Source: Candidatus Gastranaerophilales bacterium (lineage in GTDB: Bacteria > Cyanobacteriota > Vampirovibrionia > Gastranaerophilales > Gastranaerophilaceae). From it: a stretch of 38,226 nt of DNA. The stretch covers positions 1-38,226 of the forward strand of contig CANPZB010000014.1 in assembly GCA_947588755.1 (NCBI GenBank), written 5' to 3'. The stretch's first letter is position 1. Every line of letters begins with the position of its first letter. The translations under genes were made by a program, and so were the position numbers. Of the stretch, positions 2,186-36,649 are shown piece by piece. Below the pieces are notes generated by a model. The model did not search any database, was not told the DNA's origin, and was given only the letters and a program-made list of their open reading frames with translations.

Positions 2186-2405
2186 CTGTCGTCTTTTCCT
2201 TTTCCTTTGGAATAAAAGCCTCAATATAAAAATCGGGTGCTTTTTCATTGTCTTTTTTGTTTTTGTTTTCAACCATTACAAACCGCTTCAATTTGTCAAT
2301 TTGAAACGGCATTATTGCTTCATCAAAAAGTAATGAATAACCGTACTCTACATTCCCTGCATCTGATTCTTTTTTCTTTATCCATGCCGCACCAATTCTT
2401 GTCAT
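2160..2405 (-). CDS. Small DUF736-like phage protein, 81 aa
   Basis: Begins MTRIGAAWIKKK, the opening seen in many small phage proteins of DUF736 type, and later has APDFYIEAFIPKEKE, consistent with the short beta-rich fold of that group. It lies between the annealing protein (start overlaps its stop by 4 nt) and the initiator (overlap of 26 nt), so it belongs to the replication/recombination module. Function is not established. Confidence 0.5.
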   Translation of the reverse strand: MTRIGAAWIKKKESDAGNVEYGYSLLFDEAIMPFQIDKLKRFVMVENKNKKDNEKAPDFYIEAFIPKEKEKTTDEGVHQTL

Positions 2406-3139
2406 AGTTCCATTTCCTCCAATTTCTGTGATAACTCTTTGTTTTTCTTTACTTTGTGATAGTTATAAAAAACATCCTCTTTCTTTTCGCCGTTTCTCAG
2501 TCGTTTATATAACAACCTGAATTGTTCAATATCCTCACTATTGAAAGCGAAAGCCTCATTATGAACATAATTCTCTAAATCAGCTTGAGTAATACCAAAG
2601 GGCTTGAATTTTGCTATAATATCTTTTATCTCTTGCGGAATAGATATTATCGGCTCTGATTCAAATTGTTTGGATGTTTCTTTTCGATATTCTTTAGGTA
2701 AAGCCCAGTTTGGCAACTCCGGTGGTTTACCTTTGATTTTATAAGATTTTCCGTAGCCTTCAATATCTACCCATTGAGTGGGGATTTTATATAAATATCT
2801 GCCTATCCCCCATTGTGTGGCGCATCTTTTCATTGCACCGGATAAACCGCCTTTTGTGGCATCCATATTGCTATCATCTGCGCCATCCCACTTTGTAATC
2901 CATTCCCCTTCGTGAAGAATAGAGATGCCGCATAATTGCTTGCTTGTTTTCCATTCTCTAAACTCATTACGCCAGCCGAATATTCCGAATATATCATCGA
3001 GCCTTTGTTGTATAGCTCGTGCCGTTATATACGGCAGGGCGATACCTTTTGTTTTTGCCGTATTTGTCGCCCCTATTCGCCATTCAATCTCATTCGGCTT
3101 AAAGGGAGCGTTTAATTTTTCCATAATTTCATCATTCAT
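2402..3139 (-). CDS. Rad52/Sak-like single-strand annealing protein, 245 aa
   Basis: Residues 1-130 have the Rad52/22-family pattern: PFKPNEIEWRIG, then a run of basic and small residues, RLDDIFGIFGWRNEF, and DATKGGLSGAMKRCATQWGIGRYLY, the most conserved part of Sak-type annealing proteins. The C-terminal 100 residues are linker and helical. The usual role is annealing of complementary single strands for phage recombination. The RecE-like nuclease gene directly upstream (stop and start 2 nt apart) is the expected partner that makes the single strands. Such a pair could also promote recombination among the repeats elsewhere in this genome. Confidence 0.88.
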   Translation of the reverse strand: MNDEIMEKLNAPFKPNEIEWRIGATNTAKTKGIALPYITARAIQQRLDDIFGIFGWRNEFREWKTSKQLCGISILHEGEWITKWDGADDSNMDATKGGLSGAMKRCATQWGIGRYLYKIPTQWVDIEGYGKSYKIKGKPPELPNWALPKEYRKETSKQFESEPIISIPQEIKDIIAKFKPFGITQADLENYVHNEAFAFNSEDIEQFRLLYKRLRNGEKKEDVFYNYHKVKKNKELSQKLEEMEL

Positions 3140-3141
3140 AA

Positions 3142-4143
3142 TTAAACCTCATATTTTAAAATTTCTTTATCCACCCAGTACGGGGCATAACATACACCGT
3201 TTTCTTTGTCAAAATTACTTAATAAATCATCGGGTTTAGGTGCAAGGCTCATTTCGATAACATCATTTGAGTATGTACCCCATAGCCCTTTATCTTTACA
3301 ATCAACAAATTTTTCGATTGCCAATCGGACTGCCTTATCCCCGTATAGGATAATATCCGAATCGGGCATGTAAATTTGTGTGATGTATGGCGGTTCTTTT
3401 TCTTGTGCGACAAAAAAGAACGTATCGACATCATCATCGAAAACGGCTTTAATGCCTTTAGTGTACATCGCCGCTTGTATGTGATACCCGTACTTGATAA
3501 ACTCACCGTAAAAGATTTCGGGGTTTACGCTTGTGCAGGTTTTGTAATCGGGTACCAGTTTATGGTCAGCCGGTAAATAATCGGGTCGGCATTTTAACCA
3601 TACTCCGGTTTCTTCATCTTGCCAAAACAGACTTATTTCACTTTCACCTTTTTGATGAAATGCGCTATATGCCTTTTTATTAGCTTTAATAGCTCGTGCC
3701 GTTCCGATTACTTGATTTAATTCGTTTTTGTTTAAATGTATGTCTTTGGGTTCGATTCCCTCGTTATCTAAAAGTAACTGCATTAAGTCAAATACCGGAT
3801 ATTTTGAAATCGAACAGTCATACCCAAATTTATCTTGAAGTAATCTGACCAGCTCGATTTTTGTCAACTCCGAATAAGGATTGTGCCAATATTCTTGGCA
3901 AAAGGCTTTTTCACCTTCAAGGATGTATTTATGGCATGCTTTACCGATTTTAAAACTCGGTTTTTCCTTCGCTTCATATTCGCCCGAAAGATATTTGTAA
4001 TAATATCTTGCAGGGCAATCTAATAAAATTTTAAGCCCACTTTCGGATAATGCAGGGTGTGCGTGATACACATCTATTGGCATATTCCGAATTGCGCAAG
4101 GTTTTTTAATCTTCATGCCTTCTTTGTAGTTTATAATTCCCAT
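3142..4143 (-). CDS. RecE-like PD-(D/E)XK exonuclease (DUF3799 type), 333 aa
   Basis: The N-terminus carries MPIDVYHAHPALSESGLKIL and CPARYYYKYLSGEY, then FKIGKACHKYILEG, the standard opening of RecE/ExoVIII-type phage nucleases. Further on are WLKCRPDYLP and VPDYKTCTSVNPEIF, the D...D-Y-K motif of the PD-(D/E)XK core, then YHIQAAMYTKGI with the conserved Gln. It would degrade one strand of duplex DNA ends and hand the overhang to the Sak-like protein downstream. The start at 4143 has GAGG eight bases upstream and overlaps the preceding stop. MKIKKPC at 4116 (AAGG close by) is a possible alternative. Confidence 0.88.
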   Translation of the reverse strand: MGIINYKEGMKIKKPCAIRNMPIDVYHAHPALSESGLKILLDCPARYYYKYLSGEYEAKEKPSFKIGKACHKYILEGEKAFCQEYWHNPYSELTKIELVRLLQDKFGYDCSISKYPVFDLMQLLLDNEGIEPKDIHLNKNELNQVIGTARAIKANKKAYSAFHQKGESEISLFWQDEETGVWLKCRPDYLPADHKLVPDYKTCTSVNPEIFYGEFIKYGYHIQAAMYTKGIKAVFDDDVDTFFFVAQEKEPPYITQIYMPDSDIILYGDKAVRLAIEKFVDCKDKGLWGTYSNDVIEMSLAPKPDDLLSNFDKENGVCYAPYWVDKEILKYEV

Positions 4144-8079: not shown

Positions 8080-8479
8080 GAAAACAGGCAATCAAACCGA
8101 AGCATATCGTAAGGCTTATAAGTGTAAAAACATGAAGCCTGAGACAATACACAGCCGAGCATACGAACTTATGCAAAAGAGTGAGATTAAGGCTAGGATA
8201 CAGGAACTGCAAGACAAAATCGATAAAAAAAATATTTTAAGTGCTCAGGAACTTCAAGAAGAATTAACCCGATATATTCTCGATGAAAAAGAGGAAGAAT
8301 GTATAGTTGTTGAGGCGAACAGTGATAAATCTTCAACGGCAAAGCGGATGTCAAAGAAGGTTCAACCTAAAGACAAACTCAAAGCAATAGAGCTTTTATG
8401 TAAACTTGCCGGCTACAATATTGAAAAAGAGGGCGTAACCGCCCCAATTACCATAAATTTTACACGTAATTATGATTGA
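8039..8479 (+). CDS. Terminase small subunit, 146 aa
   Basis: Opens with LPAKREKFCQEFKKTGNQTE followed by AYRKAYKCKNM, the HTH-containing start of the Terminase_2 family, then a helical oligomerisation region (RIQELQDKI, ILSAQELQEEL) and a DKLKAIELLCKLAGY block. It recognises the packaging site on phage DNA and recruits the large subunit encoded directly after it (overlap 8 nt). Length is normal for the family. Confidence 0.88.
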   Translation: MLPAKREKFCQEFKKTGNQTEAYRKAYKCKNMKPETIHSRAYELMQKSEIKARIQELQDKIDKKNILSAQELQEELTRYILDEKEEECIVVEANSDKSSTAKRMSKKVQPKDKLKAIELLCKLAGYNIEKEGVTAPITINFTRNYD

Positions 8480-9776
8480 AGTCGTAAACCAAGAGATTGG
8501 ATTTAACAAAGTTTTCAAGGATTTTAACGAAACTAAATGCCGTTACAGAGTGGCAAAGGGTTCGGCAGGTTCGGGCAAAAGCGTAAACGTGGCAATGGAT
8601 TATATCCTAAAATTGTCTGACCCGTATTACAAAGGTGCTAATTTGCTTGTCTTACGCAAAACAGAGGATACAAACAGAGATAGCACGTTTGCCGAACTGG
8701 AAGCGGCAATAATAAAAATCTTTGGTGCATCTTATTACCAAAATATTTGGCTGATACGTCGTAACCCTTTAATGATGGAGTGCCGTACAACCGGCTCTAG
8801 GATTATATTTCGGGGTATGTACGATGAGCGCCAAAGAGAAAAAATAAAATCAATAACGGTTAAAGTCGGTAAGCTCGTTTGGATATGGCTTGAAGAAGCC
8901 ACCGAGTTTGAAGAAAGCGATATCGACATACTGGACGACCGTTTAAGGGGTGATTTGAACGAAATCAACCCCAATTTATATTATCAAATGACGTTTACGT
9001 TTAACCCCGTAAGCGCATCTCATTGGATAAAAGCCAAATTTTTTGATGTGGAAGATGAAGATTATTTTACACATCATAGTACATACTTGGATAACAGATT
9101 TATCGATGATGCGTACCATAAGCGGATGATGAGAAGAAAAGAGCGTGACCCTGACGGTTACAGGGTCTATGGCTTGGGCGATTGGGGCGAATTAGGTGGC
9201 TTAATTCTAACAAATGGAGAGATTAAAAATTTTAATATTACCCCCGATAACTTCGATTCAATGACAATCGGTCAAGATTTCGGTTATAACCACGCTGATG
9301 CAATACTAACACTGGGCTTTAAAGACGGTGATGTGTATGTTTGCAATGAGATTTATGTTTATGAAAAAGATACATCAGAGATAATCTCATTAGCTGAGGG
9401 CAAACTTGATAAAAATTTAATAATGTGGTGTGATAGCGCCGAACCTGACAGAATACAGATGTGGAAGCGTGCAGGATATTACCGAGCGCAAGGGGTAACA
9501 AAGACACCGTTTCAACAAGCCAAACCTATGGCAGGGGCTAATAAAAAAAGTTACATCAATTCACAAATTGATTGGTTAAAGCAGCGAAAAATATATATTC
9601 ATCCTTCTTGCATTAACACTATAAAAGAGATTCAGCAGTGGAAATGGAAAAAGGACAAAGAAACTAATCAATACATAGATGAGCCGGTCGATATATTCGA
9701 TGATGCTATGGCGGCGCTTCGTTACGGCTGTACATCACAAATGCAACAGCGGACAAGTATTTTAGAAGTTTTATAA
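8472..9776 (+). CDS. terL: Terminase large subunit (ATPase/nuclease), 434 aa
   Basis: The ATPase domain has Walker A GSAGSGKS at residues 30-37 and Walker B LVWIWLEEA around 135-144, with the catalytic Glu pair. The C-terminal RNase H-like nuclease has acidic residues at IGQDFGYNHAD (about 265), WCDSAEPDR (about 318) and DIFDDAMAALRYG (about 406). This is the PBSX/Terminase_3 type. It drives DNA into the prohead through the portal encoded next (4-nt gap) and cuts the concatemer. Confidence 0.95.
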   Translation: MIEVVNQEIGFNKVFKDFNETKCRYRVAKGSAGSGKSVNVAMDYILKLSDPYYKGANLLVLRKTEDTNRDSTFAELEAAIIKIFGASYYQNIWLIRRNPLMMECRTTGSRIIFRGMYDERQREKIKSITVKVGKLVWIWLEEATEFEESDIDILDDRLRGDLNEINPNLYYQMTFTFNPVSASHWIKAKFFDVEDEDYFTHHSTYLDNRFIDDAYHKRMMRRKERDPDGYRVYGLGDWGELGGLILTNGEIKNFNITPDNFDSMTIGQDFGYNHADAILTLGFKDGDVYVCNEIYVYEKDTSEIISLAEGKLDKNLIMWCDSAEPDRIQMWKRAGYYRAQGVTKTPFQQAKPMAGANKKSYINSQIDWLKQRKIYIHPSCINTIKEIQQWKWKKDKETNQYIDEPVDIFDDAMAALRYGCTSQMQQRTSILEVL

Positions 9777-26877: not shown

Positions 26878-27516
26878 ATGGAAAATTATATACAGATTTT
26901 ATTAGATTTTGAAAAATATTACGCAAACTTGCTGATTGTGCAATATAACGGAAAACCAAAGGCTATGGCAACGATAAAATTATTTGTTGATTTACTTTGG
27001 TGCAATATGGTTTTATTGCAAATACGAGACGGTTTCGATTGGAAAACTGCCGTCGGTAATCAGCTGGATATTATCGGGGCATGGTTAGGTGTAGATAGAT
27101 TTTACAACGGTCAATTATTCGATTTTCACCCGTGGTTTGCACTTATCGACTGGAACAAAGAGCCTGACAATTTGCAAGGAGGATTTTCAACTTTTGAAAC
27201 TTTTGAGAGTGTAGAGGGCGGTTTTTTAGGTTACGAAGTAGTTTTACCGACAAAAAATAAAATGGTTGATACTGCTTTTAGGATGATGATTGGTTTAAAA
27301 ATAATTAAAAACAATCTGAATATGACCGCCAAAAATATAGATAATGCAATTTGGAATTACTTTAGCGGACAAGTTTATACAGTATGGGAACCCCACAAAC
27401 TGATTTATTACTATTCTTCAACACTAACCGAGGTAATGCAAGTAGCATTAAGTAAAGATGTTTTACCCGTACCGACAGGGTGTCAAATTGAATTAAGGGA
27501 GATTATAAATGACTGA
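26878..27516 (+). CDS. Baseplate wedge/fibre-network protein (DUF2612), 212 aa
   Basis: FEKYYANLLIVQYNGKPKAM, then ATIKLFVDLLWCNMVLLQIR and AVGNQLDIIGAWLGVDRFY, followed by FRMMIGLKIIKNNLNMTAKN, are hallmarks of DUF2612, which takes the place of P2 gpI. It joins baseplate wedge to tail fibre. It begins directly after gene J and its stop overlaps the fibre start by 8 nt. Confidence 0.88.
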   Translation: MENYIQILLDFEKYYANLLIVQYNGKPKAMATIKLFVDLLWCNMVLLQIRDGFDWKTAVGNQLDIIGAWLGVDRFYNGQLFDFHPWFALIDWNKEPDNLQGGFSTFETFESVEGGFLGYEVVLPTKNKMVDTAFRMMIGLKIIKNNLNMTAKNIDNAIWNYFSGQVYTVWEPHKLIYYYSSTLTEVMQVALSKDVLPVPTGCQIELREIIND

Positions 27517-30500
27517 GAATTTACAACGTGTAACGGCTGAGATTTTCGCCGGCAATGCAGATAAAACAAAAGTGGGACAATTTGGCTCGGCTTTGATTGG
27601 CTCAAAAGTAGAAACAACCGACGTATCAGAAATACAGAGTTTACCTGCATATACTTTGGGTTGGTCACAAGCGGTTTTAACATCGAGAAATTATCCGACG
27701 TATCAAGAAATGAACGGCGTTATGAAAGTCATGTCATATCAAACCGCTTACACGATGCAAAAGGGGATGCCCGAATATGACCCGAATACCACATATTATA
27801 CAGGCGATATGTGTAAAGGGATTAAAACAAATATAATTTATTATTCAAGGACGGATAATAATCTTGGTAACGATCCTACAACAAGCCCAACCTTTTGGGG
27901 TGAATTTAAGGGAACGGTTAATATTCCTGCTACAAATTATATATCTGAAATGAGCGCAGATATAACATATGGCGGAAATCAAATAAATATACCCGTAATG
28001 ACTTTATACGCCCCAAATGGCAGAAATGCGGATAATACTTTAATCAATCAGATAGTTACGACTTCGGCGAATACGTTTGAGGTTACGGGTCAAGGCAAAT
28101 ACACGTTATTTTATAACGGTGAAGCCAACAACCTTTTATTATCCATAAACTATGCAAAAAGAACGGATAAAGAACCGCCTATCGTATTTCAAAACGATGT
28201 TTGGTATAAAACTGATAATTTCATGTATTATAACGCAACTATCTTCCCTAATTACACTGCATCTGATGATGTTAATGTAACGGAAGCGGGTATTGTATCA
28301 AATTTAGGCACATTAGCGTTAGATGTAGCTTGGAATGTAGGAAAAACACCGACTTTTAATATAGATTTTACAACGGGTAACGATGTTTTTACAACTCAAT
28401 CTTTGTTTAGTTTACCCTTTGCAGATGCTATAATTGAAAACTTACAGCTTAATGTATCTTTATACGGAAATTCATATACCGTTAGTTATTATCCGACTGT
28501 TTACAGCGGTTCTTACAGCTTAACCAATACAAAGACTACATATAGCTATACCATAAATGGTGAAGATACAATATATTCATCACAGCCTATTACAAATGGT
28601 TTAACCGTATATAATGACACTGATTTAACACAGAATGCCGGAGTAGTAACTCAACTTTCAGAAAGTGAAGTAACTATCAGTGTGATTCAAACCGTATATG
28701 ACGGAGAATTTTCGTTATCATCATCGGGTAATTATTATACTTATACTTTTGGTGATGAAGGTACTTTTTACACTTCCGCCCCACTTGCACAAGATGTAGT
28801 TGTATATACAAATACGGGCTTAAGTGAAGTTTACGGAACGGTGGCAAGTGTCTCAGGTTCAACTGTTCTTGTACAAACAGAAAATACTGTTTATTCGGGT
28901 AATTTTGTTCAAAATCAGAATATATCATTATACACATATACTTTCGGAGGTACAACCGTTTATACAAATGCCTCTTTGTCTAATAATCTTAAAGTTTATT
29001 CAGATGAGGGACTGGACGATTTATACGGTGTAGTAAAAGAAGTAACAGTTACAAATATAATAGTACAAAGTGCAGGAACATCAACGGGTTACGTAGGGCA
29101 AGGAGGAAGCCAATTTGTTGCACCGGATGTAACAATATATTCGGATGTAGATTTAAAACAAAACGCAGGAACATCAACGGGTGATAATGCAACTTACACA
29201 GGGGTTTATCAACGGAGTAAGATTGGTAATTTAAACTACGATGTAGCCGCAGGAACAAAATACACAGGAAGTTTGAGCTATAACGGCACATCTTATAGTT
29301 TAAATCTCAATAGCACAGGAACAAGTTTAATAACGACCAATGAGCCGTATTCATATACTATAACAGTAACTTTAGGGGGTAGTAGTGCCTTTTTAGGTAG
29401 TTTTGATTTGACAGGGGTAACAATCCCCTCGGTTTGGACATGGAATAACTTTAACAATCCTAAGCCAAACTGGCTAAAAGCGCCTTTGGTTGAGCTTGGG
29501 GATATAACCATAACCAATGGTCGAATTACGGAGCTTAATATAAATGAGCCGATTGAACTTGCTAAAATCACCGATATAAAAGACTTGGCAGACAAAGACT
29601 TAATAAATACTCATAGAATATCTGATTGTGTTTTAAGTTATATAGAACCAATGAGCTTTCAAAACTCTGCTTCAAGTGCGGAAATAACTTTACCCACAGA
29701 AACACGAGTACTTTTTGCCGACGGCAGAAACACTGATAATACGGTTAAAAGCATACCTATCACAACCGTAGAGCCTTTGACATTAACGATAGACAAATAT
29801 TCACAAAGCAATAATATCATATATTTACAATACATAAACAAGACATTAAGTTTACAATATACAGATGCCGCATATTACTTCGAGCAAGACGACGAGCCGG
29901 AGGATGCAACAAACACGAATATCCAATATATATGGCGTTCTTTGGCGAAAAACCAATGGTTTACAGGGAATGTGAACGGCTGGAAACAAATTTATGCGGT
30001 AAAAGTAGGCGAGTTCACGGGTTCTTTAGAAAATTACATCACCGGCTTAACAGTTGAAAGTCCTATTAGAATCGACGGGGGGAATTTTGTCAAAAAGACC
30101 GGCGATACTATGACTGGGACTTTAATAATTACAAAAAATGAATTTCATTCAAGCAATATTATATTAGCAAATCCTGCAATAGATTGGTCAACTACAACAA
30201 ATGCAACCGAATGGATAAATATGACATTTAAAGATAATATTGATGAAGAATATGATATAGGTCATTTTTCAGTAGGACATCTACCAGATGGCGGTAGACA
30301 AATCCACATGAATCTGGCTAATCCAACTAATAATACACAATATCAGGCAACTCTTGGAGTAGGATATCATCCGGACGGAACTACATATACAGTAAGTCCG
30401 ACACCGATAGCGACATCAAACGGGAATGAAATAGCGACAACTAAATGGGTTAGAACCTACGGAACAGCTAATGGTGGTTTCACCTCTTTTAATAAAAATA

Positions 30501-30769
30501 CAAATGGATATATAAAATTTGCAAATGGTATTATTATTCAGTGGGGTTATGCTAAATTTCTTAAAACAGGAACGAAAATAACTTTACCAACTGCATATAC
30601 AAATGCAAATTATTCTATTGTTTTTGGTGGAGAGGGTGGATCAACCGCTTGGGTTGTAGGTGCTATGTTAACATCAGGAACAAGAACAAACACTACATTT
30701 ACCGCACACGGTTGGCAAGAAGGTTCTACTGTTGATAAGTGGTGTTATTGGATAACTATTGGGTATTAA
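27509..30769 (+). CDS. Tail fibre with invertible C-terminal tip, 1086 aa
   Basis: The N-terminus attaches to the baseplate; residues about 90-130 include a CBM5/12-like piece (YDPNTTYYTGDMCKGI ... WGEF). Residues about 330-530 contain three repeats of about 62 residues (TVYSGSYSL, TVYDGEFSL, TVYSGNFVQ starts, each with YTYTF/YSYTI and VYxDxxL parts). Residues 956-986 are encoded by a 92-bp inverted repeat (VSPTPIATSNGNEIATTKWV core, a common fibre joint). The last 100 residues, the present tip, have the gp53-like end: ANGIIIQWGYAKF, ITLPTAYTNANYSIVFGG and WCYWITIGY. A different tip lies reversed downstream. Confidence 0.92.
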   Translation: MTENLQRVTAEIFAGNADKTKVGQFGSALIGSKVETTDVSEIQSLPAYTLGWSQAVLTSRNYPTYQEMNGVMKVMSYQTAYTMQKGMPEYDPNTTYYTGDMCKGIKTNIIYYSRTDNNLGNDPTTSPTFWGEFKGTVNIPATNYISEMSADITYGGNQINIPVMTLYAPNGRNADNTLINQIVTTSANTFEVTGQGKYTLFYNGEANNLLLSINYAKRTDKEPPIVFQNDVWYKTDNFMYYNATIFPNYTASDDVNVTEAGIVSNLGTLALDVAWNVGKTPTFNIDFTTGNDVFTTQSLFSLPFADAIIENLQLNVSLYGNSYTVSYYPTVYSGSYSLTNTKTTYSYTINGEDTIYSSQPITNGLTVYNDTDLTQNAGVVTQLSESEVTISVIQTVYDGEFSLSSSGNYYTYTFGDEGTFYTSAPLAQDVVVYTNTGLSEVYGTVASVSGSTVLVQTENTVYSGNFVQNQNISLYTYTFGGTTVYTNASLSNNLKVYSDEGLDDLYGVVKEVTVTNIIVQSAGTSTGYVGQGGSQFVAPDVTIYSDVDLKQNAGTSTGDNATYTGVYQRSKIGNLNYDVAAGTKYTGSLSYNGTSYSLNLNSTGTSLITTNEPYSYTITVTLGGSSAFLGSFDLTGVTIPSVWTWNNFNNPKPNWLKAPLVELGDITITNGRITELNINEPIELAKITDIKDLADKDLINTHRISDCVLSYIEPMSFQNSASSAEITLPTETRVLFADGRNTDNTVKSIPITTVEPLTLTIDKYSQSNNIIYLQYINKTLSLQYTDAAYYFEQDDEPEDATNTNIQYIWRSLAKNQWFTGNVNGWKQIYAVKVGEFTGSLENYITGLTVESPIRIDGGNFVKKTGDTMTGTLIITKNEFHSSNIILANPAIDWSTTTNATEWINMTFKDNIDEEYDIGHFSVGHLPDGGRQIHMNLANPTNNTQYQATLGVGYHPDGTTYTVSPTPIATSNGNEIATTKWVRTYGTANGGFTSFNKNTNGYIKFANGIIIQWGYAKFLKTGTKITLPTAYTNANYSIVFGGEGGSTAWVVGAMLTSGTRTNTTFTAHGWQEGSTVDKWCYWITIGY
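30375..30466 (+). repeat. Left arm of perfect 92-bp inverted repeat
   Basis: Identical base for base to the reverse complement of 31509-31600. It codes for the conserved joint of the fibre before the tip and ends exactly at a codon boundary. The arm begins with acggaac and ends with acggaaca, and contains a 9-bp direct repeat (atagcgaca, 15 bp apart). Confidence 0.97.
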
Positions 30770-31508
30770 GTCTAATCACTTTCTTTACTTTCGCCATAAA
30801 AATCATTTAATAATTGATTATCACATTCATTAATAAATTCTTGTGTTACTGTAACACCAGTATTTTGTGTTGGTAATTCCTCTGTACCAAAATCAGGTAT
30901 ATTGTAAGTAATTATGGGTACTCCTACCCGTAATCTTGGCAATATATCTGATAAAAAATCTCTAGTTGTTTCATCTTTCATTTTTACTATTCTTTTTATC
31001 CACCCTAAGGAAGTTTCAAAAAATTCAGCTTTAAACTCTTTTTCACGAAATTCAGTATGTTCTTTTTGCCATGCTTCATCTTTTAATACATATTCCGAAC
31101 AGTCATCACGAAGTACATATTCTTTATCTGTGTATTCCGATTTGTCAATATTATATGTTAGTGGGTCTAATTCTTTCTCTGTATAAAATACTATTTTCTC
31201 ATTTTGATATCCTAAATACATTATTTGCTCCCTTCTGCATATACAAAATAAAACAAGAATTGACTTTGAGCATTATAAGATACAGCAACTGTATCGCCTT
31301 GTTTTGCTGGTATCCATACACTAACTCTGCCAGTAATTCCTATAAAATTATCAAATGCTAAACCACTTGTTCTATTATCTAACATTACATAGTTATGCTG
31401 TTGAGCATTCATTCTTAGATAATAATATCCGTTGGCAGGCGCAACGTATGTCGTTCCGCTAGCACCTACTGTTAAATTTTGCCTCTTGCTACTACCGAAT
31501 GGGAACGT
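30467..31508. mobile_element. Invertible fibre-tip segment, 1042 bp
   Basis: Between the inverted arms lie, on plus, the current fibre tip (30467-30769). On minus lie the alternative tip (31508-31221) and its chaperone-like gene (31221-30772), tail to tail with the first. Both tips join the arm at the same codon phase, so inversion gives a clean 986 + 95 residue fibre followed by the chaperone gene. The same logic is known from the Mu G and P1 C segments. No recombinase gene lies next to it or elsewhere in the window. Confidence 0.88.
30772..31221 (-). CDS. Tail-fibre chaperone-like protein B (in silent cassette), 149 aa
   Basis: Has EFREKEFKAEFFETSLGWIK, then RIVKMKDETTRDFLSDILPR and VPIITYNIPDF. 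This aligns with NTFFKIGDYGYYRKIPKGYS and GTFIFYKEPDF in the 202-aa protein at 31642, so the two are distant homologues. The ATG shares its A with the TAA of the alternative tip (TAATG), showing translational coupling. In the present orientation it has no visible promoter. On inversion it would follow the fibre. The assumed role is assembly of the tip B fibre. Confidence 0.7.
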   Translation of the reverse strand: MYLGYQNEKIVFYTEKELDPLTYNIDKSEYTDKEYVLRDDCSEYVLKDEAWQKEHTEFREKEFKAEFFETSLGWIKRIVKMKDETTRDFLSDILPRLRVGVPIITYNIPDFGTEELPTQNTGVTVTQEFINECDNQLLNDFYGESKESD

Positions 31509-31600
31509 TGTTCCGTAGGTTCTAACCCATTTAGTTGTCGCTATTTCATTCCCGTTTGATGTCGCTATCGGTGTCGGACTTACTGTATATGTAGTTCCGT
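31221..31600 (-). other. Silent alternative tail-fibre tip B (no start codon)
   Basis: Reading the minus strand, the arm (31600-31509) is followed in frame by 95 different residues: TFPFGSSKRQNLTVGASGTT, then YVAPANGYYYLRMNAQQHNY, VSVWIPAKQGDTVAVSYNAQ and a last strand ending in EGSK. It looks like a C1q/TNF-like or other jelly-roll tip, unlike the gp53-like tip A. The open frame extends upstream beyond the arm to 31715, but that part is antisense to gene 31642 and has no ribosome site. It is expressed only after inversion. Confidence 0.85.
31509..31600 (-). repeat. Right arm of perfect 92-bp inverted repeat
   Basis: Reverse complement of 30375-30466 with no mismatch. Perfect identity at all third codon positions, while flanking tips share nothing, points to active conversion or inversion, not ancient duplication. 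Confidence 0.97.
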
Positions 31601-31641
31601 TAAAATTAAAGTTATAATAATATAAAGAAAGGATATATTTT

Positions 31642-32250
31642 ATGTTTGATTTTGAAAATCTTGAAGGAATGTCAGTTGAACCACCCGAATTTTTCGGGTT
31701 TGGTAAAATTGACAATAGCTATGGTTTTGTAGAAAATACAGACCCTAGGTACGACGAAAACACATTTATTAAGGTAACACCCGAAGAACACCAGCAACTA
31801 TTTGAAGAACAGTCCGAAGGTAAACAAATTGTTTGCTATGAAGGCAAAGTGTTTACTGCCGAACCCGACAGATACTATCTTGACGACAACGGTGAATATT
31901 TGAAACGTACTGATGAAGAACTTGCTAAATTGAAAGCAAATCAGCGCAAAACACAGTTTTTAAACACGTTTTTCAAAATCGGTGATTACGGCTATTATCG
32001 CAAAATTCCAAAAGGCTATTCAACCGCTATGGATAGTTTGAACTGTGCTATGAACGCACTTAATGCAGAAATAACGGAGTTTCCGGCAGGTACATTTATA
32101 TTCTACAAAGAACCGGATTTCACGCAACCGGAACAATGCACGGAAGATTGGCTCATAGCCAATCAAATAAAATCAGACGTAATGAGCGCTGATGAGTTCA
32201 AAAAACTCTACACTACCGCCGTAATAGCTTGGAACACAACGGAACATTAG
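31642..32250 (+). CDS. Tail-fibre chaperone-like protein A, 202 aa
   Basis: FLNTFFKIGDYGYYRKIPKG, then YSTAMDSLNCAMNALN and FPAGTFIFYKEPDF resemble fibre-assembly proteins found after fibre genes in gut phages. The N-terminal part (FDFENLEGMSVEPPEFFGFG, YDENTFIKVTPEEHQQLFEE) is typical of tail-fibre assembly domains with variable end. GAAAGGA precedes the ATG. It lies just outside the invertible segment, so it stays in place whichever tip is active. Confidence 0.65.
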   Translation: MFDFENLEGMSVEPPEFFGFGKIDNSYGFVENTDPRYDENTFIKVTPEEHQQLFEEQSEGKQIVCYEGKVFTAEPDRYYLDDNGEYLKRTDEELAKLKANQRKTQFLNTFFKIGDYGYYRKIPKGYSTAMDSLNCAMNALNAEITEFPAGTFIFYKEPDFTQPEQCTEDWLIANQIKSDVMSADEFKKLYTTAVIAWNTTEH

Positions 32251-33856: not shown

Positions 33857-33892
33857 AACCTTGCAGTAATCTTTATTGCAAGGTTTTTTTTT
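33857..33892 (+). terminator. Terminator at end of late operon
   Basis: AACCTTGCA (33857-33865) pairs with TGCAAGGTT (33877-33885) and a T-run follows to 33892. It closes the rightward structural and lysis operon. The stop codon of the convergent gene (33875-33873) lies in its loop. Confidence 0.88.
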
Positions 33893-34580
33893 GCCCTGAA
33901 ATCATTTTTCTGACATCATCCCAGTAACTTTTAGGTACATTTTTTACACAATTTTCGAGCGATTCCTTCATCTCTCTTTGTACTCTTTCATTTTCCTTTT
34001 CATAAAAAATCCTTCTAGCCTCAATCTGTTTGTATTCTTTGATGATTTGCGCCGCACCTCCATTACGAATTATTGCGTTTATATAAGCATTCTTATTTTG
34101 AACATTTTTACTTTTTGCATATTCAATTAAATATTTTCTATCCTCTGGGTTAATTTTTTGTTCTTTTTTAGGTTCTATACATGTATTATGACTTTTTGTC
34201 ATATCTAAAATGTCATTTTGGCTTTTATAATCTGACAAATTTTCAGGCTCAAAATTTTTTAAATCTTGAGTCGGTTTTTGAACGATTTTAGACGTGAATT
34301 TGTATCTGTTTGATGATTTACATTCGACAATAATTAAACCAGCCTTAACGAGCTCCTGAACGGCTCTAATTACAGACCGCTCTGAAATCCCCGTTTTATC
34401 GGCAATTGTTTTTTGTCGAGGGAATACATCGGCTTTTGCAGGATTGTAACAACCCGATAAATACAATAATACCAATTTTGCGGTTGGTGTAACATCGAAT
34501 TGTGAAAGATTGTTAAGCAAATTGTTAGTTAACCTAAATTGCGAAAAGGCATGCCCGGCATGCTTTTTGAGTTTTTTCAT
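33873..34580 (-). CDS. Second replication initiator-like wHTH protein, 235 aa
   Basis: Start chosen at MKKLKKHAG (34580) behind AAGGGGGAG; a reading from 34604 has no ribosome site. Residues about 20-100 form a winged helix: FDVTPTAKLVLLYLSGCYNP, VFPRQKTIADKTGISERSVI, then RAVQELVKAGLIIV, as in RepA/DnaD-type plasmid and phage initiators. The C-terminal part has NAYINAIIRNGGAAQIIKEY, like the module in the initiator at 1316. The upstream region contains a possible counter-transcript RNA. It could serve plasmid-like maintenance of the prophage, while the other initiator serves lytic replication. Confidence 0.7.
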   Translation of the reverse strand: MKKLKKHAGHAFSQFRLTNNLLNNLSQFDVTPTAKLVLLYLSGCYNPAKADVFPRQKTIADKTGISERSVIRAVQELVKAGLIIVECKSSNRYKFTSKIVQKPTQDLKNFEPENLSDYKSQNDILDMTKSHNTCIEPKKEQKINPEDRKYLIEYAKSKNVQNKNAYINAIIRNGGAAQIIKEYKQIEARRIFYEKENERVQREMKESLENCVKNVPKSYWDDVRKMISGQKKTLQ

Positions 34581-34612
34581 ACGCTCCCCCTTAATTTTTT
34601 GCATACTAACCG

Positions 34613-34757: not shown

Positions 34758-35160
34758 TTATTAATAACGGTTATCATCCTTGTTATTAAAGGTTTATAAA
34801 CATTATAAAGGGGTTAAAATTATGGAAAAAGAATTAAAAATCGCAGAATTAGCAAGCATTTTGGGAGTATCAATACCGACAACTTGGAATCGGATACGTA
34901 AAGACGGGTTAAAAACCGTTAAGAAACTTGATGAAAACCGCAAAGAAATAACTTATGTAATAGTTTCGGATGATTACGCAGAAAAGTATATTAACAACGT
35001 TATTAATAACGTTAATAATGTTGTTAATAACGGTAATTATGAAGATTTATTAACCGTTAATAACGATAATAATGTTAATAATAACCCCTTAAACACTCAA
35101 ATGCAGGGTCTTTCAGCCGTTGAAGTGTTCGACCGTTTAACAAATATTAATAACCGTTAT
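34758..35160. repeat. Iteron-like TTAATAAC-(C/G)GTTA repeats
   Basis: A partly palindromic element recurs: ttattaataacggttat (34758-34774, non-coding), gttattaataacgttaat (34999-35016), gttaataacggtaatta (35023-35039), ttattaaccgttaataac (35048-35065) and attaataaccgttat (35146-35160). Four copies lie in the gene and code for Asn/Val runs, but the first is in the promoter region. This suggests binding sites for the HTH protein or for an initiator. Confidence 0.55.
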
Positions 35161-35427
35161 AATGAAGAATTAAAAACTCTTAATAAAGACTTAGTGGATG
35201 CCAAAAGTAAATTACTGCTTTTAGAGGATAAAGCTAATCGTGAAGGATTTTATGTGAACGAAATAAACGAATTGAAAAAAGATAATAAAAAACTTTCAAC
35301 TTGCATGACAATTTTAATAATTTTTGTAATATTTTTATTAATAGTAATTTTATTTTTGAGCTTTAATTTTTCCAATTCGGATTTAAAAACAGATAAAACC
35401 CCTTCGATTCAAATCGAAAATAACTAA
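34822..35427 (+). CDS. HTH protein with Asn-rich linker, coiled coil and C-terminal membrane anchor, 201 aa
   Basis: Start at MEKELKIAELASILGVSIPT behind AAAGGGG; a reading from 34780 is only upstream sequence. Residues 1-60 are a winged or MerR-like HTH (ELASILGVSIPTTWNRIRKD), then an Asn-rich repeat region (NNVINNVNNVVNN), a coiled coil (NEELKTLNKDLVDAKSKLLL, LEDKANREGFYVNEINELKK) and a membrane segment (MTILIIFVIFLLIVILFLSF) near the end. DNA binding plus membrane anchoring would fit partition, segregation or membrane tethering of an episome. The function is unknown. I recall similar proteins from gut Gastranaerophilales, not verified. Confidence 0.6.
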   Translation: MEKELKIAELASILGVSIPTTWNRIRKDGLKTVKKLDENRKEITYVIVSDDYAEKYINNVINNVNNVVNNGNYEDLLTVNNDNNVNNNPLNTQMQGLSAVEVFDRLTNINNRYNEELKTLNKDLVDAKSKLLLLEDKANREGFYVNEINELKKDNKKLSTCMTILIIFVIFLLIVILFLSFNFSNSDLKTDKTPSIQIENN

Positions 35428-35803: not shown

Positions 35804-36649
35804 CTACCTTTCTAAAAAACTAAATATATATGTAATCACATCCACAGTCCAACCATTACCAATAACTCCGGCAGCTATGTTACGGTTTAAAATTTTCGTA
35901 TATCCTTCGGGCAAAGTTTGAAGTCGCTCAAGCTCCGTTTAATTAAGATGTCGGCAAGAATAACGGTCGTTTAAATCCTCAAAAACAAGCGTGAACATCC
36001 CCGTCGTTTCGTATCGGCGAAGCATTTTAATTTTATTGCTATAAGGACGGCTCTCGCTTTCCTTGATACAACGAGCTTTTAATCTATCGGCATAACCGCT
36101 TGTTAAAATATCTTGTAAATAAATTTTTTTATCTTTTGGTTGTGGAATTGCACAAGTCGGAAAACCAAAAAGATTATAATTTTTTTCGCCAATATTCGTC
36201 CAATAAAAACGATTCCGTAATTGAGCCGAAACAAGATCCGAATTGATATTCACGGGATAAATTCCAAGAGCTTGGGAAATTATTTCATAATCAGCAGGCG
36301 GCATTTCAACATTTTCAAATAAAAAATATTTTGGTTTTAATTCCTTCAACGCCCGGACGTATTCCCAAAACAAAGAACTTTTTGACCCTTTTAAACCGGG
36401 GCGTTTGGAATGTGCCTGCGATAAATCTTGACAAGGACTTCCACCGATTAGCAAGTCAATTTCTTCAAACTGCTTGAAATCTATATCTTTTACATCCCCT
36501 AATTGTATAGTATTAGGAAAGTTATGTTGAGTTACTTTTATTGCATATTTATCAATTTCACTTGAATAATATTTGTCAACTTTTATTCCAGCTCTTTTTA
36601 AAGCAAGTTGTCCACAACTTATTCCGTCAAATAAACTTAGTATATTCAT
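35804..36649 (-). pseudogene. C5-cytosine DNA methyltransferase interrupted by in-frame TAA
   Basis: The ORF 36649-35939 (236 aa) has motif I (SLFDGISCGQLALKRAG), motif IV with the catalytic Cys (IGGSPCQDLS), motif VI (YFLFENVEMP) and motif VIII (QLRNRFYWTNIG), and ends SCRHLN. Right after the TAA (35941-35939) the same frame continues for 44 codons: TELERLQTLPEGYTKILNRN, then IAAGVIGNGWTVDVI, which are motifs IX and X. In intact enzymes the break point reads LNQTELERLQ, so one C-to-T change (CAA to TAA) explains it. Motif X is needed for cofactor binding, so the short form is probably inactive unless readthrough occurs. Confidence 0.85.

Follow-up and report, generated by a model that had tools for sequence, protein, structure and literature searches.

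The window, by which we mean the whole stretch of 38,226 nt analysed here and which is the entire contig C14 of its assembly, carries a two-tip tail-fibre cassette, in which a constant shaft is in frame with one of two opposed tips and the DNA coding for the joint is present twice, as a pair of inverted 92-nt arms. A two-tip cassette of this kind had been proposed from the DNA before any database search, and the proposal is now supported by the comparisons described below, including the presence of the same layout in four other prophages. We consider it an even bet that the cassette is a two-state switch of a temperate myophage, inverted by homology through the phage's own Rad52/Erf protein and exonuclease or through host RecA.

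Arms, reading frames and the phage genome

The two arms are complementary at 92 of 92 positions, as had been claimed, and enclose 1042 nt. Their likeness ends abruptly at either side, and they form the sole exact inverted repeat of at least 24 nt in the window. The segment as a whole (30375-31600) had no second match elsewhere in the 1.83-Mb genome. The features of the cassette, in order along the window, are the following.

27509-30466, plus strand: constant part of the fibre gene, 986 aa with the left arm included, from in-silico inversion and N-terminal comparison
30375-30466, plus strand: left arm, 92 nt, coding for GTTYTVSPTPIATSNGNEIATTKWVRTYGT, from arm comparison
30467-30769, plus strand: active tip A, 100 aa, with a Gp53-like C-terminal domain (Pfam PF21882, Gp53-like_C, E 3e-9)
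30772-31221, minus strand: 149-aa accessory gene that would move with tip B, a probable fibre assembly factor, from homologues and composite relatives
31221-31508, minus strand: silent tip B, 95 codons plus TAA, reversed and without a start codon of its own, from the frames and homologous active tips
31509-31600, minus strand: right arm, exact reverse complement of the left arm, from arm comparison
31642-32250, plus strand: 202-aa accessory gene, fixed outside the segment, from bridging proteins and a match in G083:C26

The current fibre gene (27509-30769) encodes 1086 aa, comprising the 986 that end with the left arm and the 100 of tip A. When the segment was inverted in silico, an intact fibre of 1081 aa (986 common and 95) was obtained, with the 149-aa open reading frame directly downstream and on the same strand as the fibre. 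The codon phase is the same at both joints and the third positions in the arms are identical. This is the layout of an invertible tip cassette, with a constant fibre part, two opposed tips, and inverted repeats in the same codon phase. In-silico inversion and arm comparison therefore upheld the coordinates, phases and lengths of the sequence-only reading, together with its claims of a complete alternative fibre after inversion and of identical silent positions in the arms. The N-terminal ~130 aa of the fibre are common to the fibres of G190, G039, G028, G206, and G288.

The remainder of the contig encodes the terminase, portal, major head protein, tail sheath, tape measure and baseplate of a myophage, and a CI-like repressor. 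The contig ends (1-731 and 37454-38226) lie in one leucine-rich-repeat gene and could be joined in frame with a one-base overlap; because both ends read through this gene in frame, the phage genome is probably circular. The contig break itself falls in a tandem repeat of the same gene. A replication-initiator-like winged-helix protein stands after the lysis genes (33873-34604 on the minus strand and 34780-35427) and shares 53% identity with a protein of Dulem virus 31 (PP511318.1, L284), a circular 35.8-kb genome that has genes for baseplate and tail although it is filed under Microviridae. No integrase is present on the contig, its relatives have one, and the phage may live as a plasmid. A DNA cytosine methylase (35939-36649, minus strand) has just 236 aa, matches the first third of its family profile, and is possibly truncated. 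No reverse transcriptase of the diversity-generating retroelement type was seen among the window proteins scanned for families.

The two tips and the accessory genes

Comparison of the sequence with its own opposite strand matched the arm only, indicating that tips A and B are unrelated by sequence, in agreement with the earlier claim. Dinucleotide shuffling left the 95-codon frame of tip B open in just 4 of 20,000 cases, and its stop codon overlaps the start codon of the 149-aa gene (TAATG). The protein formed by the arm and tip B gave no Pfam match. By tblastn, three other phage elements (L182, L183, and L188) have fibre-like proteins that end in a tip B homologue (33-41% identity), and in each of them a homologue of the 149-aa gene comes next. 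Because such tips end other fibre genes in this company, tip B is, judged by its homologues, a genuine module. Another tip B-like end was present in L220, and one distant match among phage records. The tip B profile matched nothing significant among solved structures; its predicted model, of low confidence (mean pLDDT 60), gave weak matches to C1q/TNF-like beta-sandwiches, which is a hint only of a beta-sandwich or C1q-like fold.

Of 288 genomes in the bacterial family, 41 encode homologues of the 149-aa protein, which make up a mosaic family. In L182 and L183 the gene follows the homologous tip directly, with the same one-base overlap with the fibre stop as in the window, and in L188 a gap of ~100 nt separates the two. 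The 149-aa protein itself had no direct match to any family, tail-fibre-assembly included, and its single-sequence structure prediction was uninformative (pLDDT 39). The composite relative L231 joins a PHROG 105 (tail fiber assembly) N-terminus to a C-terminal domain of the 149-aa type, and on this account we regard the gene as a probable fibre assembly factor. The sequence-only reading had described it as chaperone-like; the case for this is indirect, coming from relatives in which its C-terminal domain is joined to a tail-fibre-assembly domain and not from a family match of its own. That one accessory gene would travel with its tip agrees with the present results, since the segment includes an accessory gene for tip B alone and such pairs are active elsewhere.

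Bridging proteins (L274 and L224) connect the product of the fixed 202-aa gene weakly to the 149-aa family, and we propose that this gene serves whichever tip stands upstream. A DNA search of the bacterial family matched a piece of this gene in G083:C26, a contig that belongs to a bacterium of another genus: ~300 nt of its 5′ part (window 31621-31924 and G083:C26:7065-7367) are 99% identical, and both flanks differ. The match suggests a recent swap of accessory-gene pieces between phages. We also considered G083:C26 as the same phage in the inverted state and rejected it, since the two have in common only part of the 202-aa gene, and the tip that precedes it is another one.

The same layout in other prophages

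Four prophages from the same family of bacteria (G039, G206, G100, and G083) also have a reversed silent tip between arms at the fibre joint. The first three came from an inverted-repeat screen of 87 loci (1.06 Mb), and G083 turned up afterwards, outside that screen, when the G206 segment was used as a query. In all five cases the arms code for the conserved joint just ahead of the tip and the tips meet tail to tail, while the window alone has an accessory gene inside the segment. Compared to the 92 nt of the window, the exact arms of the four relatives measure 25-53 nt.

L030:7989-8013 and 8489-8513, inverted: arms of G039:C8, 25 nt exact within ~53 nt; behind the active tip, a reversed silent tip
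L032:7691-7743 and 8090-8142, inverted: arms of G206:C1, 53 nt
L221:7637-7665 and 8083-8111, inverted: arms of G100:C1, 29 nt, coding for GNGIILQWG before two Gp53-like tips
L308:1280-1309 and 1784-1813, inverted: arms of G083:C18, 30 nt, coding for LWGSNGFGY

The G039:C8 prophage is the nearest relative, with a terminase 87% identical, and its fibre end differs (collar type). Its arms have four mismatches, all synonymous, suggesting that the silent arm is constrained as protein. The active and silent tips of G206 are ~50% identical over a stretch of 78 aa, and in G083 the canonical continuation GFGYLSAGLPN is present in the silent copy and absent from the active one. The silent frames were open in 114 (G039), 588 (G206) and 197 (G100) of 20,000 dinucleotide shuffles each. 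The 87-locus screen also returned other inverted repeat pairs of 32-37 nt, at L266:575-611 and 1300-1336 and in L256 (290-322 and 696-728; 7461-7492 and 7867-7898), and none of these has a link to fibre tips as far as seen.

The recurrence of the layout in four other, independently assembled genomes makes an assembly artefact, in the right arm or in the way the core is oriented, very improbable. The assembly is indeed a draft of 89 contigs, but the core holds distinct coding DNA with homologues elsewhere, and should the orientation be arbitrary because the population was mixed, this would in itself argue for switching.

It had been suggested that related phages be compared for both orientations, and here a single orientation was all that we found: the opposite one was absent from the genomes, virus contigs and phage records searched. 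Back-translated peptides recovered no relatives of the fibre in virus and genome contigs, the phage records held no fibre match, and the exact arm patterns of four phages had no match in virus contigs, so that these searches gave no further copy whose orientation could be compared. This result would be expected of a frozen or one-way arrangement, with the silent tip a relic or, now and then, a donor in exchange with other phages, and no switching in the life of the phage; the divergence of the G039 arms at four sites and the exchange of accessory genes between phages seen in G083 (the nearly identical ~300 nt in different surroundings) point the same way. However, the silent frames are open in all cases, the changes in the G039 arms are synonymous only, the window arms are fully identical, and the layout recurs in five phages with different tip families, and we therefore regard a frozen arrangement as improbable. 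From the sequence we infer that the segment really inverts; given the known role of fibre tips, inversion may well change the host range.

Comparison with known switches and means of inversion

That phages can switch host range by inversion is established in textbooks, where it is linked to dedicated invertases, and to our knowledge every well-studied tail switch has such an enzyme encoded next to it. Like the window, the Mu G segment (Gin) and the P1 C segment (Cin) hold a constant fibre part in frame with one of two opposed tips plus accessory genes, and P1 also has long inverted arms. In contrast to these segments of 3-4.2 kb, that of the window spans ~1.2 kb with its arms, has an accessory gene with one tip only, and is accompanied by neither a serine invertase on phage or host nor a hix/gix-like site. 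The Mu and P1 switches change adsorption (PMC12529663). The e14 P segment (PinE/PinQ) resembles the window in its tail-fibre genes placed tail to tail, its crossover in the coding region and the accessory tfa genes nearby, but it uses 16-bp recombinase sites and serine recombinases, whereas the window and its relatives have arms of 25-92 nt and no common site; the P segment can be inverted by recombinases from other prophages (PMC12529663). The bifidophage Rin shufflon and a second, orphan inversion locus without a flanking recombinase likewise swap receptor-binding protein C-termini of 95-100 aa by inversion, but with a tyrosine invertase and 11-bp sites in Rin and 8-bp crossover sequences in the orphan locus, against the 25-92 nt arms here (PMC6109161).

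Membership of the Gin/Cin/Pin/Min group was examined by profile and site searches. A serine invertase beside the segment was absent, with no PF00239 match in the whole host genome (99.83% complete) and no serine or tyrosine recombinase in a profile search of the window, and 26-bp hix/gix-like crossover sites gave 0 matches at up to 3 mismatches. Nor was there the linked tyrosine recombinase of an Rci/Rin shufflon, the host's five matches to PF00589 being all on contigs other than C14. The G039, G206 and G100 prophages likewise showed no dedicated flipping enzyme (only one integrase each, at the prophage end), and no linked invertase was seen in the 12 kb searched around the G083 fibre. In layout the cassette resembles the Mu, P1 and e14 switches, yet by these tests it belongs to neither the serine- nor the tyrosine-invertase systems. 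The likeness to the Mu G segment that had been drawn from the sequence stands for the layout and fails for the enzyme and its sites, so that the mechanism is probably unlike that of Mu.

The main rival is inversion by a site-specific recombinase supplied in trans, from the host or another prophage, at a short site within the arms. Three of the host tyrosine recombinases, of ~180 aa (on C1, C12 and C48; L180, L179, and L178), are weakly similar to tyrosine-type DNA invertases, and each adjoins inverted repeats of 23-26 nt, which are probable host invertible promoters. The published orphan locus of bifidophages is thought to be served in trans (PMC6109161). However, the repeat motif beside the host enzymes is no commoner than chance in the window and absent from the arms, nothing beyond chance is common to the arm sequences of the five phages, and the lack of hix/gix-like sites and of any host serine recombinase weighs in the same direction; a recombinase acting in trans is in our view rather unlikely.

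Recombination by homology fits arms that differ from phage to phage, coincide with the coding joints and are long in the window, and five arms without a common site are expected if homology alone matters. The candidate factors lie side by side on the contig.

2402-3139, minus strand: Rad52/Erf-like single-strand annealing protein, candidate recombination factor (PHROG 1097, E 7e-59; Pfam Rad52_Rad22, E 1e-20)
3142-4143, minus strand: exonuclease VIII-like nuclease, partner of the annealing protein (PHROG 412, E 1e-68)

Under this homology-driven reading, recombination between the 92-nt arms would invert the 1.04-kb core without a dedicated invertase, through the phage Rad52/Erf protein and exonuclease VIII during replication or through host RecA. 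The 986-aa shaft would then be fused in frame to tip B, with the coupled 149-aa assembly gene expressed behind it and tip A silent; the same exchange would also hold the arms identical. We know of no tail-fibre switch driven by Rad52/Erf/RecT proteins and an exonuclease. Annealing proteins are common in temperate phages, and their presence is for this reason weak evidence for the homology model. Among the relatives, G039 encodes an ERF protein and G100 a RecT annealing protein with an exonuclease. Recombination by a phage annealing protein with an exonuclease is known for exchange between phages and prophages, and such pairs, among them Erf/Exo of phage D3, were 20- to 100-fold more efficient than the RecA pathway at recombining sequences that were identical or had diverged (PMC3945230). 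Several points count against the homology model. The opposite orientation was seen in no genome, virus contig or phage record, inversion by homology at 25-30 nt would be rare, the divergence of the G039 arms implies that exchange there is not frequent, and a recombinase could come in trans. G206 has just a PHROG 3657 protein of unknown function beside its exonuclease; the C-terminal part of the window annealing protein also matches PHROG 3657. The more general proposal, that phage annealing recombinases (Rad52/Erf/RecT with an exonuclease) invert tips through duplicated joint-coding arms and define a class of switches needing no invertase, is put forward tentatively, as one that may well prove wrong.

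Together, five related phages with the same layout, different arms, and no linked invertase in those searched would mean a switch that arises from ordinary homologous recombination or from an enzyme borrowed from the host. Such switches would escape genome scans centred on invertases and, if this is true, any conserved joint motif could become a switch by duplication of the DNA that codes for the joint. The two-tip layout offers a marker for alternative receptor-binding tips in the phages of an uncultured bacterial family.
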